Shown: one piece after another, positions 34,302-40,257 of the stretch
How the letters are laid out: each line of letters opens with the position of its first letter
How positions within the stretch are numbered: position 1 is the stretch's first letter
From: a bacterium
GTDB lineage: Bacteria > Planctomycetota > Planctomycetia > Planctomycetales > Planctomycetaceae
Reading direction: 5' to 3'
NCBI GenBank assembly: GCA_016125225.1
Contig: WGME01000029.1
Coordinates: 1-40,257 of the forward strand
DNA: 40,257 nt
Made by a program: the position numbers and the translations under genes
Notes under the pieces: model-generated
Seen by the model: only the letters and a program-made list of their open reading frames with translations
Database searches by the model: none
What the model was told of the DNA's origin: nothing

Positions 34302-34452
34302 CTTCATGGTCTTTGCGTTCAAAAAGCTTATCGAAGACGACTGTTGCGTAGTGGCCTCTGCTTGCAAGTCTCTCGGAAGTTCGAGATACTTCCCTGCGTC
34401 CGACAGAGCAGCCGGTCCCGTTCACCAGTTGTCTGAACAACCAGTTACATAT

Positions 34453-34525
34453 GCACTCGTAGCTCAATGGATAGAGCATCGGTCTTCGGAACCGAGGGTT
34501 GGGGGTTCGAGTCCCTCCGAGTGTA
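34453..34525 (+). tRNA. tRNA-Arg (anticodon UCG)
   Basis: A full cloverleaf can be drawn. The acceptor stem is GCACTCG (34453-34459) with CGAGTGT (34518-34524, one G-U), discriminator A at 34525. The D stem is GCTC/GAGC. The anticodon stem is TCGGT/ACCGA with loop CTTCGGA, giving anticodon TCG, which reads CGA. The T arm has TTCGAGT between GGGGG and CCCTC. CCA is not encoded. It is the probable attachment site for the integrase 122 bases downstream. Confidence 0.95.
34480..34525 (+). other. Probable attachment site (attL) in the tRNA 3' half
   Basis: Tyrosine integrases placed directly after a tRNA usually target its 3' half, leaving a direct repeat at the other island end. The tRNA-Arg gene is intact and the integrase gene starts right after it, so the 3' half of the tRNA is the expected core. 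I found no second copy before the window end, so the island continues to the right. The exact core is inferred. Confidence 0.45.
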
Positions 34526-34593
34526 TTTCCTCTAACTTCAGCCGAACGCACGACTTAGCGTACCTGCCTGTGTGGGGCAGCGTGGCTTGGAAG

Positions 34594-34650
34594 CCTTGGG
34601 AAAAGTGGTAGTTCTACCACTTTCCTTGGACGACCAAGGAGTCCACCATG
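34594..34650 (+). promoter_or_regulatory. Leader hairpins hiding the integrase ribosome-binding site
   Basis: Immediately before the integrase ATG (34648) lie two adjoining hairpins. The first is a 10-bp stem AAAGTGGTAG/CTACCACTTT (34602-34611 with 34614-34623). The second is CCTTGG-acga-CCAAGG (34624-34629 with 34634-34639). The Shine-Dalgarno AAGGAG (34636-34641) overlaps the right arm of the second stem. A further CCTTGG at 34594-34599 could pair with the same arm. Base pairing would therefore keep integrase translation low unless opened. Confidence 0.6.
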
Positions 34651-35880
34651 CCACGTCAGGTTGTAGTCCCGCGTTATACGCTGCATAAGCCGTCCGGACA
34701 GGGACGTGCCCGGTATCAAGGACGGGACCTCTACTTCGGTCCCTATGAAGCCCCCGAGAGTCACGAGCGGTACGCCCGGTTTGTGGCGGAACTGGCTATC
34801 TCCGCCTCTCCGAATGCCCGTGAAACTCTCTCTGGGCCAAGCCTCTCGAATCCTGATCTCTCGGTGAGTGAACTGATTCTGCGTTACCTGAGGTTTGCCC
34901 AAGAGTACTATGGAAACTCATCCAAGGAGCCGGTCAGCCTGCGTGGAGCGCTCAAGCCTCTCCACGAGTTGTATGGCAGCTCGCGAGCCCGATTGTTTGG
35001 CCCCTTGGCCCTGAAGGCCGTATTGCAACATCTCGTGAAGCAGGGACTATGCCGTACCGAGATCAATCGGCGACTCAGTCGCATCAAACGGGCCTTCAAA
35101 TGGGCAGTCTCCGAGGAATTGATTCCCCCTGGGGTTCTGCAGAGCCTGCAGGCCGTGAGTGGTCTGCGTCGCGGGCGGTCCGCTGTGCGAGAATCGGATC
35201 CCGTCAAGCCGGTTGCGATCGCTGATGTTCAGCGGACGCTCCCCTTCCTCACCCCGCAGGTCGCGACCATTTGCCAATTACAACTACTCACCGGGATGCG
35301 ACCCTCCGAGGTGGTCGCCATGCGCCTGTGTGATCTTGACCGCCGCGGCTTCTTATGGGTTTATACCCCCGTGTCACATAAGACACAGCACTTGGGAATG
35401 ACCAAGCAGGTTTTACTGGGACCTCAGTCCCAAGCTCTGCTCCAGCCTTTTCTGCAGCGGTCTGCGGAAGACTATCTCTTTACTCCGCTGGAAGCAGAGG
35501 CTTGGCGGAATGAACAGCGCGCTCAACATAGGAATCCCCAGCGACGCACAAAGATCTATCCCTGTGAACTGGTCGCCCGCGGTCGACGTCAGGCCGCGTC
35601 CCGGGCGAGGACACGAGAGCGGCCCTTTCAACCCCATTACACGGAAGATGCATATCGACGGGCAATTACCTATGCGCTAAAGAAAGCTCGCAAGCAGGGA
35701 ATCGAGATTCCTCACTGGTTCCCCTATCAGCTGCGTCACACCCATGGCACCGAAGTCCGCCGCAAATACGGACTCGAAGCCGCCCAAGTGATGCTGGGAC
35801 ATGCCACCGCGGACGTGACGCAGATCTACGCTGAGCGTAATATGCAACTCGCGGCTCAGGTGGCCAGTGAAATGGGGTAA
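34648..35880 (+). CDS. Tyrosine recombinase/integrase
   Basis: The 410-residue protein is a tyrosine-family site-specific recombinase. Its N-terminal 80 residues (RQVVVPRYTLHKPSGQGRAR) are a DNA-binding arm typical of planctomycete integrases, followed by a core-binding domain at about 70-165. The catalytic set is present: R218 (TGMRPSE), K245 (SHKTQ), R363 with H364 (PYQLRHTHG), H385 (LGHATAD) and the nucleophile Y394 (QIYAERN). The usual first histidine of the H-x-x-R box is Tyr360 here. It lies directly after the tRNA-Arg gene, as expected for an island integrase. Its ribosome-binding site is sequestered in a hairpin. I find no transposase or second recombinase gene in the rest of the window to the right. 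Confidence 0.9.
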   Translation: MPRQVVVPRYTLHKPSGQGRARYQGRDLYFGPYEAPESHERYARFVAELAISASPNARETLSGPSLSNPDLSVSELILRYLRFAQEYYGNSSKEPVSLRGALKPLHELYGSSRARLFGPLALKAVLQHLVKQGLCRTEINRRLSRIKRAFKWAVSEELIPPGVLQSLQAVSGLRRGRSAVRESDPVKPVAIADVQRTLPFLTPQVATICQLQLLTGMRPSEVVAMRLCDLDRRGFLWVYTPVSHKTQHLGMTKQVLLGPQSQALLQPFLQRSAEDYLFTPLEAEAWRNEQRAQHRNPQRRTKIYPCELVARGRRQAASRARTRERPFQPHYTEDAYRRAITYALKKARKQGIEIPHWFPYQLRHTHGTEVRRKYGLEAAQVMLGHATADVTQIYAERNMQLAAQVASEMG

Positions 35881-35931: not shown

Positions 35932-36927
35932 ATGACACAAGAAAATCTCTATCTCTGGTTGGGGTTTCGCTGCGGTCAACTGGCCAACGTCTGTGGTTCG
36001 GAAGAGCTGATCCAGTCGCATCACTGGAGTGTGGTGCATCGGCTCATTCCCCAGTTGTCACTTCTGGTTCGACAACTCCCAGACTCGGCTCCTCTTGCCC
36101 AAACGCTGCGAACTCAGGCGGACTCCATCGAAGGTTTTTTTCGCGGGCTGCCAGACCAATTGCCAACTGAGGAGTGGCAGATTGCAGCCCGCCATACACT
36201 CGGGATCTTGGAAGATCTCCTTCAGAATGTCGTAGACCATGAGACGAATTCCCTTTCGCAGTCATTTATGTGGGGACATTTCCTGGGGGATTCGCGTCGC
36301 CAGACTTCATTCCAGAGAGGCCAACCCGGAACTTGGACACCAGTTACGGGTTGGTGCTTTGGAATGGGATATGAAACTGCGACCGCGACAGAAAACTCTG
36401 AATGGCCTTTCGCTGACCTTCTCCTCGAGATGGTCTCTGGGGAAGACTCCGCAACCGTCGTTCCCCCAGCGAACGGTCCCATCACCAGTTATCCTCCTCC
36501 TTGGGATGGCTGGGGTCGGCTCGAATTCTGTTTACGGCAGCGAACACGCACTCTAGCAGCAGCAGTGGCCACGGAAGTTTCCCAACAAGTAGAGACTGAT
36601 TATCTAGGACTCCGACTGGGCCACAGCGAACGGGATCCTATTTATCGTGCAACTCATCCTCAAAGGTCGGTGTACTTGCGGCCGCAACTTTTTCGGTTAT
36701 TGCAACAGTATTACCGGGCGCGAGAACGGGGCCTGAATCGCACTTGGTTGGTGGAACATTGGAACGAAATTGGTACCGGTGGGACTGATCGTAGCAGCAG
36801 TGCGATTGATACCGCACACTCGGCACTTCGCAGGGAATTGCGACGATTATCCCTGACAATTGAACCATTCCGACGGGGTGATATCCGGGGCTGGCGCTTG
36901 GCGGAACTAGTCCGCCATCAGGAATGA
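35932..36927 (+). CDS. Island protein with C-terminal OmpR-like winged helix
   Basis: The 331-residue protein begins 51 bases after the integrase. The first 230 residues match no family I know; they contain helical stretches (LIPQLSLLVRQLP, TLGILEDLLQNVV) and a Pro-rich loop at about 175-195. The last 90 residues (VYLRPQLFRLLQQYYRARERGLNRTWLVEHWNEIG, then SSSAIDTAHSALRRELRRLSL and FRRGDIRGWRLAEL) follow the helix spacing of OmpR/PhoB-type winged helices, where the final RGxGYRL corresponds to RGWRL. DNA binding is likely. There is no receiver domain. It may regulate excision or the cargo genes. Confidence 0.55.
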   Translation: MTQENLYLWLGFRCGQLANVCGSEELIQSHHWSVVHRLIPQLSLLVRQLPDSAPLAQTLRTQADSIEGFFRGLPDQLPTEEWQIAARHTLGILEDLLQNVVDHETNSLSQSFMWGHFLGDSRRQTSFQRGQPGTWTPVTGWCFGMGYETATATENSEWPFADLLLEMVSGEDSATVVPPANGPITSYPPPWDGWGRLEFCLRQRTRTLAAAVATEVSQQVETDYLGLRLGHSERDPIYRATHPQRSVYLRPQLFRLLQQYYRARERGLNRTWLVEHWNEIGTGGTDRSSSAIDTAHSALRRELRRLSLTIEPFRRGDIRGWRLAELVRHQE

Positions 36928-37139
36928 GCCTTGGGATGTATTTTGCACGCACGGATGCTCAAATCGACCTGGTCTATGACATGGGCTGGTCGGACTGCGG
37001 TTTGAAGGGGGGCAGGTCACGAACTCCCGAGCTTGGTCGTAACCTCAGCAAAATCTCAAGATCTGAGGTTTGTTGCGCTCAGGTGCTCAAACCCACAACA
37101 GGACGTCGAACTTGGATGTCCTTGTTATGGGAGTTCTCA

Positions 37140-37412
37140 ATGCGCCGCGATCGGTTATTGCCTTTCAACCAGCTTCTGCATTTGATTCGTCGTCAGTATG
37201 GCATCCGCCTGCATATCGCGACACTTTACCGCTGGAGGGGCCGCGGAATTCGTGGCCAGAAAATGTCAGCTGTGCGCATTGGCGGACGCTGGTTCAGTTC
37301 TCTGGCAGATGTGCTGAAAATGTCGGAAGTCTCTGGAGAAACACCCGTAAGGCTTGAGCATACGAATCAGTCACAAGTGCGTCGTCAATTGCAGCAGGAA
37401 TTTGGGCTGTGA
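37140..37412 (+). CDS. DUF1580-like helix-turn-helix protein
   Basis: The 90-residue protein starts at ATG 37140 with GGGAG seven bases upstream. The translation MRRDRLLPFNQLLHLIRRQ, then HIATLYRWRGRGIRGQKMSAVRIGGRWFSS is the pattern of DUF1580, a small planctomycete family with an HTH and wing like excisionases/MerR. TLYRWRGRGIRG forms the recognition helix and turn, and VRIGGRWFSS the wing. I infer an excisionase or regulator of the island. A longer frame from 36924 is open but its extra residues look non-coding. It is 213 bases after the wHTH gene. Confidence 0.65.
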   Translation: MRRDRLLPFNQLLHLIRRQYGIRLHIATLYRWRGRGIRGQKMSAVRIGGRWFSSLADVLKMSEVSGETPVRLEHTNQSQVRRQLQQEFGL

Positions 37413-38064: not shown

Positions 38065-38418
38065 ATGACGCATGACGAACGGTCCCCTCCGTGGTGGACA
38101 CGCTGGGACCAGACATTGCAGACCGGTGCGAACCTGGCTGCCACGCTGGTGCACTGGGCCCAAGGGACGCCACCCTGCTCAGTCAGTGGGGATCGCTGGC
38201 GGCGGCCCCGCCGACGCTGGCGACGCTGCATCATCATCGAAGAACTTGAAGAAGAGGAGCCTGCATTCCGACAGACCGACCCCGACGATTCCGCCCACGC
38301 CACCCGTCACGCCGCCCCTCACGCCGTTCTCAAGGGCCATCGCCCGCCACCTCCCCCCAAAAGTCCCACTCGCCGTCATCACCCTGGACACCTGCCGATG
38401 TGCTCAATGGTCTGCTGA
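38065..38418 (+). CDS. Hypothetical island protein, Arg- and Pro-rich (probably frameshifted)
   Basis: The frame encodes 117 residues from ATG 38065. The N-terminal part is amphipathic (RWDQTLQTGANLAATLVHWAQ), followed by an Arg/Trp-rich stretch, an acidic run IIIEELEEEE, and a Pro-rich segment (PPPPPKSP). The frame ends by TGA at 38416-38418, overlapping the next small frame by 19 bases. At a C6A4 run (38353-38362) a shift of one base would join it to the membrane segment encoded by that next frame, giving a protein of about 156 residues. The final residues in this frame look unnatural compared with those in the shifted frame. No family is recognised. Confidence 0.5.
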   Translation: MTHDERSPPWWTRWDQTLQTGANLAATLVHWAQGTPPCSVSGDRWRRPRRRWRRCIIIEELEEEEPAFRQTDPDDSAHATRHAAPHAVLKGHRPPPPPKSPTRRHHPGHLPMCSMVC

Positions 38419-38534: not shown

Positions 38535-38624
38535 GAGGAAAAGAGAGGCCCAGTGCCCAGTGATTACTCTGCGGTCTGGCTTTCTGCTTTCCGCTCGGAA
38601 TTGTTCCTCCTTCCTCCTTCTGAC
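38523..38624. repeat. Imperfect inverted repeat spacer with CT-rich leader
   Basis: GTCAGAAG...GGAGGAA at 38523-38540 pairs imperfectly with TTCCTCCTTCTGAC (38611-38624). The spacer holds GGTCTGGCTTTC (38573-38584), repeated in the spacer before the AAA ATPase gene, and CTTTCCGCTC, which recurs inverted after 39016. The 3' half is almost all C and T up to the next start codon. Confidence 0.6.
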
Positions 38625-38656: not shown

Positions 38657-39016
38657 ATGTCTCATCTGGTGACGATTCAGACGCAAGTTCGCGATGTCAT
38701 GGCGTTGACACAGGCCTGTGCCCAGCGGCAGTTGCCGGTGCCGGAGTACCGCACGGTACGTTTGTTTCAGACGGAAGCGACCGGGTATGCGGTGGCACTG
38801 CCCAACTGGCGGTATCCCGTGGTCTGCGACGTCACCACCGGCCACCTGCACTACGACCACTTCCAGGGCCGCTGGGGCGACATCGCCCACCTGCATGGTC
38901 TGCTGCAGCAGTATGCCGTGCAGAAAACCCGTCTCGAAGCTCTGCGTTCCGGCCGGCAAGTTCTGGAACAAGCCTTGCCCGATGGCTCGATCCGGCTGCA
39001 GATTGCGGTGGGGTAG
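38657..39016 (+). CDS. DUF1257 (Ycf35-like) protein
   Basis: The 119-residue protein starts MSHLVTIQTQVRDVMALTQA, the characteristic opening of the DUF1257 family, whose plastid/cyanobacterial member is Ycf35. It goes on with LFQTEATGYAVALPNWRYPVVCDVTTG and the RWGD motif followed by LLQQYAV. The C-terminus is basic/helical then ends in SIRLQIAVG. The function is unknown; members are small cytosolic proteins that I recall lie near DUF2997 and Ycf46-type ATPases. The same order occurs here: DUF2997 follows after 96 bases and the ATPase after that. Its leader is C/T-rich. Confidence 0.8.
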   Translation: MSHLVTIQTQVRDVMALTQACAQRQLPVPEYRTVRLFQTEATGYAVALPNWRYPVVCDVTTGHLHYDHFQGRWGDIAHLHGLLQQYAVQKTRLEALRSGRQVLEQALPDGSIRLQIAVG

Positions 39017-39112
39017 TTGAGCGGAAAGCGGAGGGCAAAAAGCGGTCAGCCTGATGCAGCCCACTCATCCATTTCACGCATCCGAATGTTTCCCTTTCTG
39101 ACAGGAGCAGAC

Positions 39113-39307
39113 ATGCCCGCCATGATTGTGGTGACCATCTCGCCGCAGGGCGAAATCACCCTCGAAACGCAAGGGCTTACCGGCCCGTCCTGCCGCGATG
39201 TGAGCCGCCAACTCGAAGCGGCCCTGGGTCTCGTGACCCGCGACACCCCGACGACCGCGTTCTATGTCGGCGAGTGGGAAGAGACCAGGTTGCAGGAAAA
39301 AGGTTGA
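39113..39307 (+). CDS. DUF2997-like small protein
   Basis: The 64-residue protein starts at ATG 39113 with AGGAG five bases upstream. The sequence VVTISPQGEITLETQGLTGPSC followed by RDVSRQLEAALG has the pattern of DUF2997: two beta strands ending in G-x-x-G-x-x-C, then a helix (S-R-x-L-E-x-A-L-G). The Cys26 in GPSC is the family's conserved residue. Its function is unknown. A longer frame opening at 39017 is rejected, as the Shine-Dalgarno decides the start. It is flanked by DUF1257 and the Ycf46-like ATPase, which suggests one three-gene unit. Confidence 0.75.
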   Translation: MPAMIVVTISPQGEITLETQGLTGPSCRDVSRQLEAALGLVTRDTPTTAFYVGEWEETRLQEKG

Positions 39308-39407
39308 AAGCCAAGGTTTCAGGTCAGAGATATCAGGTGTCTGAGAGTCCCCAGCAAAGCCTGGTCTGGCTTTCGACTTTCTCCCTGATGCCTGACACCT
39401 GAGACCT
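39306..39407. repeat. Imperfect inverted repeat spacer before the AAA ATPase gene
   Basis: AAGGTTTCAGGT...ATCAGG (39313-39338) pairs imperfectly with CCTGATGCCTGACACCTGAG and following bases (39384-39407). GAAAGCC (39306-39312) pairs with GGCTTTC (39368-39374). The segment GGTCTGGCTTTC at 39363-39374 repeats that in the spacer before DUF1257. A C/T-rich tract fills the remaining 50 bases up to the ATG at 39460. Confidence 0.6.
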
Positions 39408-39459
39408 TATGCCTCTTTTCCCCCTTCTACCTTCCCACTTCCTCCTTCCCGAGACCCGC

Positions 39460-40257
39460 ATGTCCCTCACCGACACCTTACCCGAGTATCTTCGGGCGGC
39501 CTTCAGCGGCCTGTGGATTGAAACGCTCGAACCTCACGAGGCCCTGCGCGAACTGACGACTCTCAGCCGCCAGGAAGTTTGGACTTTGGCCACTTGGGAC
39601 CTCGAACAGGGGTTGCAGGTCACCGGGACCACTAGCCCGTTGCCGACCGCTCTGGATCCGTTGACCGCGCTACGATGTTTGCCGTCATTGGCCACTCCTG
39701 AGGGGACCGCACTGCTGGTGCTGCCCCACTTTCAGCGGTTTCTGCAGAGTCCTGACGTGGTGCAGGCCCTGTTGCACCAGCTGCAACTCGGCAAGACGCT
39801 GCGGACCTGCGTGGTGATTCTCGCGCCGGTGGTGCAGTTGCCCGTCGAACTGGCCCGGCAGTTCGTGGTGCTAGAGCATGCCTTGCCCGATCGGGCTCAG
39901 TTGGGTCAGATTGCCGATGAATTGACCCCGGAAGCCCCGCTCGCCGGTATAGCTCGCGACCTGGTGCTCGATGCCGCCCGGGGTCTGACGCGCAGTGAAG
40001 CCGAAGGGGCCTTTGCGCTCTCGCTGGCCCGCACGGGGCAACTCGAACCAGCGGCGATCTGGGAACTCAAAGCCCAGACCCTCAAATCGCAGAATCTCCT
40101 GACGCTGTCGCCGTCAACCGAGACTTTCGCGGCGATCGGCGGTTTCACCGCGTTGAAAGACTTCTGCCGTCGAGCCCTGTCACCCGGACGATCAGTGAAG
40201 GCCCGGGGGGTCTTGCTGGTCTCACCCCCCGGCTGCGGAAAATCGCTCTTCTGCCGC
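39460..40257 (+). CDS. Ycf46-like AAA family ATPase, N-terminal part
   Basis: The first 266 codons are in the window and the frame is open at the right edge. Residues 1-225 match the N-terminal, non-ATPase region of Ycf46/Slr0374-type AAA proteins: IETLEPHEALRELT, a beta strand ALLVLPHFQRFL, TCVVILAPVVQLPVELARQF, then GLTRSEAEGAFALSLA. The AAA core begins at about 225 with AIGGFTALKDFCRRAL, and KARGVLLVSPPGCGKSLFCR carries Walker A with K261. Ycf46 is a cytosolic AAA protein of poorly known function. I recall a reported link to inorganic carbon use in cyanobacteria. No Shine-Dalgarno lies before ATG 39460; the leader is C/T-rich. Walker B, sensor residues and C-terminus lie outside the window. 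Confidence 0.85.
   Translation, partial: MSLTDTLPEYLRAAFSGLWIETLEPHEALRELTTLSRQEVWTLATWDLEQGLQVTGTTSPLPTALDPLTALRCLPSLATPEGTALLVLPHFQRFLQSPDVVQALLHQLQLGKTLRTCVVILAPVVQLPVELARQFVVLEHALPDRAQLGQIADELTPEAPLAGIARDLVLDAARGLTRSEAEGAFALSLARTGQLEPAAIWELKAQTLKSQNLLTLSPSTETFAAIGGFTALKDFCRRALSPGRSVKARGVLLVSPPGCGKSLFCR

Follow-up and report, generated by a model that had tools for sequence, protein, structure and literature searches.

A DUF1257-DUF2997-AAA cassette in a planctomycete looks like part of a phage and mobile-element operon often followed by a ubiquitin-like module

What brings a Ycf35-like protein, a DUF2997 protein, and a Ycf46-like ATPase, families known by plastid and cyanobacterial names, together on mobile-looking DNA of a planctomycete? 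The question is raised by the 3' end of a 40,257-base stretch of DNA (hereafter the window), which is the entire contig C8 (WGME01000029.1) of a Planctomycetaceae genome (GCA_016125225.1; G000, hereafter the source genome). An initial annotation had placed DUF1257, DUF2997, and AAA genes here in this order. All three lie on the forward strand as stated; the DUF2997 protein is certain, the DUF1257 protein is divergent and scores below threshold, and the AAA gene is cut at position 40257 by the end of the assembly:

38657..39016, + strand: DUF1257 (Ycf35-like) protein, divergent, 119 aa (PF06868 at E 0.083, plus family matches)
39110..39307, + strand: DUF2997 protein, 65 aa, with a conserved GxxC motif (PF11211)
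39409..40257, + strand: N-terminal 283 residues of a Ycf46-like AAA ATPase, ending shortly after Walker A; the start Met is probably at 39460

The cassette looks like a phage and mobile-element module. Our leading reading, which we regard as quite possible and hold tentatively, is that we see here the 5' half of a phage-type, mobile AAA+ operon. The operon would encode a remodeler of DNA-bound complexes, guided by small adaptors and, in many cases, by tags of the ubiquitin-like kind.

The cassette and its operon

The DUF2997 protein matched PF11211 with an E value of 7.6e-13 (48.6 bits against a Pfam cut-off of 24.1), and all three DUF2997 copies of the source genome scored above the cut-off. 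Its frame opens further upstream, the start being set at 39110 or 39086, and its cysteine is conserved in the aligned rows, inspected by eye, as the initial annotation had said. The DUF1257 protein reached PF06868 with 13.6 bits, below the Pfam cut-off of 22.2, and the DUF1257 model gave 0 matches in the whole source genome; its name therefore rests on family and context. Within its family, 43 of 44 members matched PF06868 at E ≤ 1 (best 1.2e-4). The N-terminal MSH is invariant in the family and is also present in a Geminocystis protein annotated as DUF1257, for which hhalign gave an E value of 0.0036 but a probability of only 9%.

The AAA part in the window yielded by itself no AAA match above the Pfam cut-off, and it is 96% identical, over the shared part, to a complete AAA protein of 502 aa on contig C11 of the same genome. 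The complete protein matched PF00004 (1.8e-25) over one AAA stretch only, preceded by a conserved N-terminal part. It is a classical AAA ATPase, as judged from the invariant columns G-x-G-K-S, D-E, R, and R; the window itself reaches Walker A only. In profile searches, p97/Cdc48-type ATPases were matched with a best E value of 9e-67. Membership in Cdc48/p97 was considered and rejected, the protein having a single AAA domain and 68 bits in the CDC48 model against a cut-off of 803. "Ycf46" is the label of the initial annotation, and no model of that name surfaced in the profile outputs. Searched with the window fragment, 39 of 59 genomes (the source genome included) gave a match at E ≤ 0.001 and 26 of 59 at E ≤ 1e-40; genome G009 has six strong copies. 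Many of the 39 match through a distant paralogue of ~700 aa with ~30% identity. This longer paralogue (~670-740 aa) is a different gene, found at G000:C27:892117-892926 and in many relatives.

The source genome contains three 5' halves of the cassette (C8, C11, and C33), all of them close to or at the end of a contig, and two 3' halves (C11 and the start of C22). Because the 5' half occurs in three copies, the linkage of the trio is not a matter of chance. The C11 copy holds a whole core: DUF1257, DUF2997, the AAA protein, a fourth gene (gene 4, ~321 aa), and two small proteins, SM4 (79 aa) and SM5b (~64 aa). Between copies, the ratio of nonsynonymous to synonymous substitution rates lay at 0.08 in the AAA part and 0.07-0.12 in DUF1257, and was higher, at 0.15-0.39, in the short DUF2997; these values indicate that the genes are or were under selection.

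A search of named genomes with an alignment of gene 4 (A1) gave 198 related loci, of which we kept the 80 best; nearly all of these are planctomycetes by title and mostly metagenome genomes. Recurrent neighbors were defined as open reading frames (ORFs) shared between loci, and some of the resulting clusters are shadow frames. Many of the 80 loci are cut short; all three upstream genes were found on the same strand in 47, SM4 in 79, and SM5b in 67. Among the 39 loci with at least 9 kb upstream, the AAA gene was present in 34, DUF1257 in 33, and DUF2997 in 33. The core gene order was kept in most of 41 examined stretches, and the gap between the AAA gene and gene 4 ranged from 23 to 7569 bases, with recurrent extra genes inside (L091, L149, L100, and others). 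The three genes thus form one linked unit, an AAA ATPase with small partners on mobile-looking DNA, as the initial annotation proposed. Its description as a trio was too narrow, since the unit also includes gene 4, SM4, and, in most cases, SM5b, and a ubiquitin-like or clamp-like module often comes next. Homologous islands lacking the trio, which the annotation had named as a finding that would speak against it, occur in part: 5-6 of the 39 loci lack a given trio gene, and seven stretches described below carry the ubiquitin-like module without the AAA core.

Gene 4 encodes a helical protein that appears to be a divergent relative of DUF3150. The protein of the source genome had no match to PF11348; a Manganitrophus plasmid homologue, 27% identical in the alignment, scored 35.3 bits for DUF3150 against a cut-off of 24.9. 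Gene 4 was detected in 32 of 294 genomes of the phylum, often in multiple copies; up to seven candidates per genome were scored, so that copy numbers are lower bounds. All 51 complete planctomycete rows of the AAA protein end in Asn. Among viral rows, covering 78 of the 80 viral contigs described below, a terminal Asn occurred in 25 of 54 with gene 4 versus 0 of 24 without it. This pattern suggests a partner role for the gene-4 protein, possibly with docking at the conserved AAA tail; shared descent may explain part of the pattern.

Two other observations concern the operon. A protein of ~220 aa, whose VVEGxxDxEFLRR motif looks TOPRIM/OLD-like by eye, is often encoded between DUF2997 and the AAA gene or downstream (L115:6455-7123 and ~19 other loci), and the one member searched had no Pfam match. 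In some loci, SM5b has a C-terminal extension resembling a zinc ribbon by eye (L045:7659-7961 and L047:12332-12634).

Modules downstream of gene 4

Both 3' halves in the source genome run into a ubiquitin-like module (module A), which consists of a ThiS-like ubiquitin-like protein (Ubl) of ~72 aa ending in ..KIEGA, an E2-like protein of ~350 aa, a JAB/JAMM protease, and a ThiF-type E1. All four frames are intact on C22, the sole whole module in this genome, and we infer that the cut copy of the window continues like those on C11 and C22. In Pfam, the E1 matched ThiF above the cut-off (2e-26), and the protease and the Ubl matched JAB (2e-4) and ThiS (0.003), both below it. The Ubl cluster was initially mixed with TOPRIM-like proteins, which were separated by length. 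A JAMM-type motif, H.HP..S..D, was found in 24 of 24 JAB rows, and K-I/V-E/D-G-A in 26 of 28 Ubl rows. The motif HPHV..C.G, which we take to be the HPN-like motif plus the catalytic Cys of E2s, is conserved in 24 of 27 E2 rows; the protein also has a long Cys-rich tail that weakly resembles zinc domains. An AlphaFold model of the E2-like protein had a mean predicted local distance difference test score of 86.7, and E2s made up most of the 50 listed Foldseek hits in the Protein Data Bank (PDB), the best match being 2eso (prob 0.93, E 0.088). In a PDB profile search, the best match was Midline-1 (0.001), followed by other zinc domains, all on the Cys-rich tail.

Full-length E2 was found in 14 of the 294 phylum genomes, 11 of which also have gene 4 (Fisher p 1.3e-9, the genomes not being independent). 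These 14 genomes gave 25 full-length hits, one weak match (G299) having been set aside, and by hand count 18 of the 25 lie on the same strand 1-2.5 kb downstream of gene 4; here too, up to seven candidates per genome were scored.

In other loci, the same place is taken by module B, a beta-clamp-like protein (c3) that is often accompanied by a PD-(D/E)XK nuclease and a small protein. c3 matched the beta sliding clamp, DNA polymerase III beta (5.8e-8), over about a quarter to half of its length and had no Pfam match; the nuclease matched PDDEXK_1 in Pfam (3e-31). Of the 80 loci, 48 extend 4 kb or more past gene 4; among these, module A followed in 20, module B in 19, both in 1, and neither in 10. 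The mutual exclusivity of A and B gave a Fisher p of 2.5e-5, the loci not being independent. On a gene-4 tree of 48 of 81 rows (22 unlabeled, 10 with neither module, and 1 with both left out; two long branches, L113 and the C11 copy, joined), the module label changed 14 times, compared with 16.3-16.4 for shuffled labels, and 76-77 of 500 shuffles were as low. At least 7 changes are forced by starred branches. These label changes indicate that the core is a constant chassis on which the modules are swapped.

Viruses, plasmids, and the upstream part of the window

A viral search with the AAA protein yielded at least 337 contigs, of which the best 80 were kept, and gene 4 as a query found 8 viral contigs. 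Among the best 80, DUF2997 was detected in 64 contigs, DUF1257 in 63, and gene 4 in 54; 48 contigs had the full set of three. The gene order varied. These partner counts lean high because the profiles were iterated on the same loci (E ≤ 0.01) without a shuffled control. Recurrent viral neighbors, one tested each, included RecT, a YqaJ exonuclease, PDDEXK_1, a DEAD helicase, an AAA_25 ATPase, a terminase large subunit, ParB, and a primase. The plastid and cyanobacterial framing of the initial annotation is therefore misleading, as the same gene set is common in viral contigs. The AAA protein also matched, near full length, the phage family phrog_8638 (1.5e-79), as did five of five tested viral AAA proteins; the PHROG entry has no assigned function and lists no partners, whereas a partner set is defined here. 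A possible clamp in phage locus L177 gave a weak hint alone (0.054), and clamps are not claimed for phages.

The viral-labeled contig L171, with the full core, the ubiquitin-like module, and serine recombinases, is perhaps not a virus but an integrative element. Variants of the cassette were also found on plasmids of Manganitrophus (AAA-DUF1257-DUF2997-DUF3150), Thermovibrio, Paenarthrobacter, Geminocystis, and Treponema. A 294-aa Paenarthrobacter protein considered as gene 4 was rejected, having no recognizable relationship to it.

Upstream of the cassette, the window contains the following features:

34452..34526, + strand: tRNA-Arg (TCG anticodon; ARAGORN), a possible integration target
34648..35880, + strand: tyrosine recombinase (integrase), 410 aa (Pfam Phage_integrase 2.9e-12; PHROG integrase 3e-27)
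35932..36927, + strand: 331-aa protein between the integrase and the cassette, no family assigned
36924..37412, + strand: DUF1580 protein (Pfam DUF1580 5.4e-7)
38065..38418, + strand: small ORF also in the C33 copy (tblastn, 80% identity over 102 aa)

The 331-aa protein had nothing below E 0.4 in Pfam and no match in NCBIfam or PHROG, and the small ORF matched no family. The DUF1580 protein is perhaps a small DNA-binding (excisionase-like) protein. The initial annotation had called the locus a tRNA-targeted island, on the basis of a tRNA gene beside an integrase. The 3' end of the tRNA-Arg had one exact match genome-wide, that is, no second copy, and 0 matches in the first 20 kb of C22 even with up to 3 mismatches. 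No attachment (att) repeat and no far end of the island were found, and targeting of the tRNA is a possibility only; the C33 copy adjoins a large serine recombinase instead. A dispersed repeat resembling repetitive extragenic palindromic elements, with matches of ~45-130 bp, lies between cassette genes and elsewhere (window 38552-38617; C11, C33, C22, C41:503378, and C9:38403). It adds repeated N-terminal tails to some ORFs and inflates their lengths.

Proposed function and rival explanations

In the operon as we read it, the AAA protein probably forms a ring that would use ATP to pull on or dismantle protein complexes, with DUF1257 and DUF2997 as its putative small adaptors. The likeliest targets would be proteins bound to DNA while the element, or its rival, replicates or recombines; we place the targets on DNA because the two downstream cartridges and some of the phage neighbors point there. 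Module A, with its E1, E2, Ubl, and JAMM protease, would mark the proteins to be handled by the AAA protein, much as ubiquitin marks those for Cdc48/p97. In sister copies, the beta-clamp-like protein, often with the nuclease, occupies the position of the ubiquitin-like pathway.

Taken further, the system would be a bacterial and phage counterpart of the ubiquitin-Cdc48 pathway. In this proposal, which we think doubtful, a transferable AAA chassis (DUF1257, DUF2997, AAA, and the DUF3150-like protein) would remove or reshape proteins on DNA, and its exchangeable cartridge would be either a Ubl tag, written by E1/E2 and erased by the JAMM protease, or a dedicated clamp plus nuclease. Cdc48/p97 acts on chromatin-bound ubiquitylated proteins. 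The likeness to it lies in the best AAA profile matches and in the pairing of an AAA protein with E1, E2, JAMM protease, and Ubl; it is functional only, since the protein here has one AAA domain, another N-terminal part, other adaptors, and a ThiS-like Ubl.

Several results weigh against the reading of a phage-type remodeler guided by ubiquitin-like tags. In named phage records, the AAA protein matched 105 of 50,697, just 4 over 80% of its length, and the 65-aa DUF2997 query matched none; isolated phages therefore carry mostly distant forms. Five of nine tested viral neighbors had no PHROG of named function, and an 18-locus viral neighbor cluster is the terminase (one member tested), which fits packaging rather than replication. 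The clamp motif was found in 0 viral loci, compared with 8 planctomycete loci. For the E2-like protein, the Foldseek E values are weak (none ≤ 0.001), Pfam gave no match, and no E2 appeared among the PDB sequence-profile hits at E ≤ 10; structure comparison of the gene-4 fold likewise gave nothing at E ≤ 0.001. On C11, the E2 tail carries a stop and the JAB frame is broken. The 10 of 48 loci with neither module also count here; one of them (L156) has the ubiquitin-like module upstream of DUF1257 (L156:3858-7611). Finally, the other 7 of the 25 E2 hits (L157-L163) are Ubl-E2-JAB-E1 sets with no AAA, DUF1257, DUF2997, or gene 4 in ~20 kb, and the link between core and module may be that of cargo in one element.

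The last point leads to an explanation that we consider unlikely, namely, that one recombination element carries the AAA core and the ubiquitin-like module as separate cargo with no functional connection. The stand-alone modules and the free exchange of modules agree with it; a serine-recombinase match lies within the stretch in five of the seven (one weak), SM5b in six, and SM4 also in one. By contrast, the shared strand and place of 18 of the 25 E2 hits after gene 4, and the presence of both modules in just 1 of 48 loci, speak for a joint role. From the seven stand-alone modules set against these 18, we conclude that the ubiquitin-like module is separable yet prefers the core. As island cargo, the set might instead serve defense against phages or plasmids, with the AAA core sensing foreign replication and the downstream module disabling it. 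Nearby recombinases, several variable copies, and interchangeable effector-like modules fit this account, as does a weak resemblance of the AAA domain to the anti-phage ATPase IetA (6.8e-11; 44 bits in the NCBIfam IteA model against a cut-off of 510). Moreover, PMC13373217 describes the ubiquitin-like operons Bil and Bub as immune pathways, some known and some putative. However, PADLOC on six core proteins returned the AAA domain alone, and the same core is present in many viral contigs, some beside phage recombination or packaging genes, where the element's own machinery fits better. Defense is a minority possibility in our view, though it and the cargo explanation are both rivals to be taken seriously. 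Operons that combine E1, E2, JAB, and Ubl, some on mobile DNA, are described for the Bil and Bub systems and for row 6d of Iyer et al. 2006 (PMC1779556, PMC11354881, and PMC13373217). The module here differs from them in its single ~72-aa Ubl ending in ..KIEGA, its E2 with a long Cys-rich tail, and the AAA-DUF1257-DUF2997-gene4 core that is often in front. Assignment to Bil (bacterial ISG15-like) was rejected, as BilA is a two-domain Ubl (PMC11354881), compared with one ThiS-like stretch here, and the C, E, H, H spacing given there for BilB is absent, the consensus CEGDG... after the Cys having no conserved H at that place by eye. The PRTRC system was rejected as well: with one protein tested per kind, no model was above its cut-off, ThiF alone giving 28.5 bits against 144.75 and Ubl, E2, and JAB none.

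Two further explanations draw partly on the cyanobacterial relatives. Ycf46 has a role in CO2 uptake, and a housekeeping AAA system of the host, tied to photosynthesis or carbon uptake as the names Ycf35 and Ycf46 would imply, could have been co-opted in planctomycetes. In cyanobacteria, duf2997-ycf35-fed7 are kept together (PMC4284462), and two of these genes, ycf35 and fed7, are dependent on SigD, a sigma factor (PMC8875361). Like that cluster and plastid Ycf35 and Ycf46, the present cassette has DUF2997 adjoining DUF1257 and a classical-type AAA protein; unlike the cyanobacterial cluster, it has the AAA gene, the DUF3150-like protein, and two small proteins in the operon, shows no ferredoxin gene, and is mobile-looking and multi-copy. 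The distribution of gene 4, patchy and often multi-copy, and the frequency of the set in viral contigs make this explanation very improbable, and a role in photosynthesis is rejected on distribution. No planctomycete is known to be photosynthetic. The cyanobacterial duf2997-ycf35-fed7 may be one settled branch of a wider family. Alternatively, a cofactor or metal-insertion AAA machine could load an iron-sulfur or other cofactor onto a target through the DUF3150-like protein and the Cys-bearing DUF2997. In its favor, the AAA, DUF1257-like, and DUF2997 genes of the Paenarthrobacter plasmid lie near a 4Fe-4S radical-SAM protein (Fer4_12, 3.8e-30), the AAA gene of the Treponema plasmid adjoins a 4Fe-4S protein (these two plasmid loci being L066 and L068), and the cyanobacterial cluster includes the ferredoxin gene fed7 (PMC4284462). 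However, none of the ten recurrent planctomycete neighbors run against Pfam is an iron-sulfur gene, and the 294-aa Paenarthrobacter protein is not recognizably related to gene 4; we regard a cofactor machine as improbable.

In the open-access literature searched, we found no known job for Ycf35, Ycf46, or DUF2997, no mention of DUF3150, and no paper joining these families; an earlier description in subscription papers is possible. DUF2997 was mentioned in 2 papers, and DUF1257 or Ycf46 in 35, where none of the 30 listed titles concerned what this set does. Finding these proteins in a phage-type operon that includes gene 4 and that, in many planctomycetes, runs on into a full ubiquitin-like pathway points to a testable role, the AAA-driven remodeling of tagged or clamp-bound proteins. 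If true, a parallel to segregase action directed by ubiquitin would exist in prokaryotes, and in a phylum whose eukaryote-like traits are often discussed.

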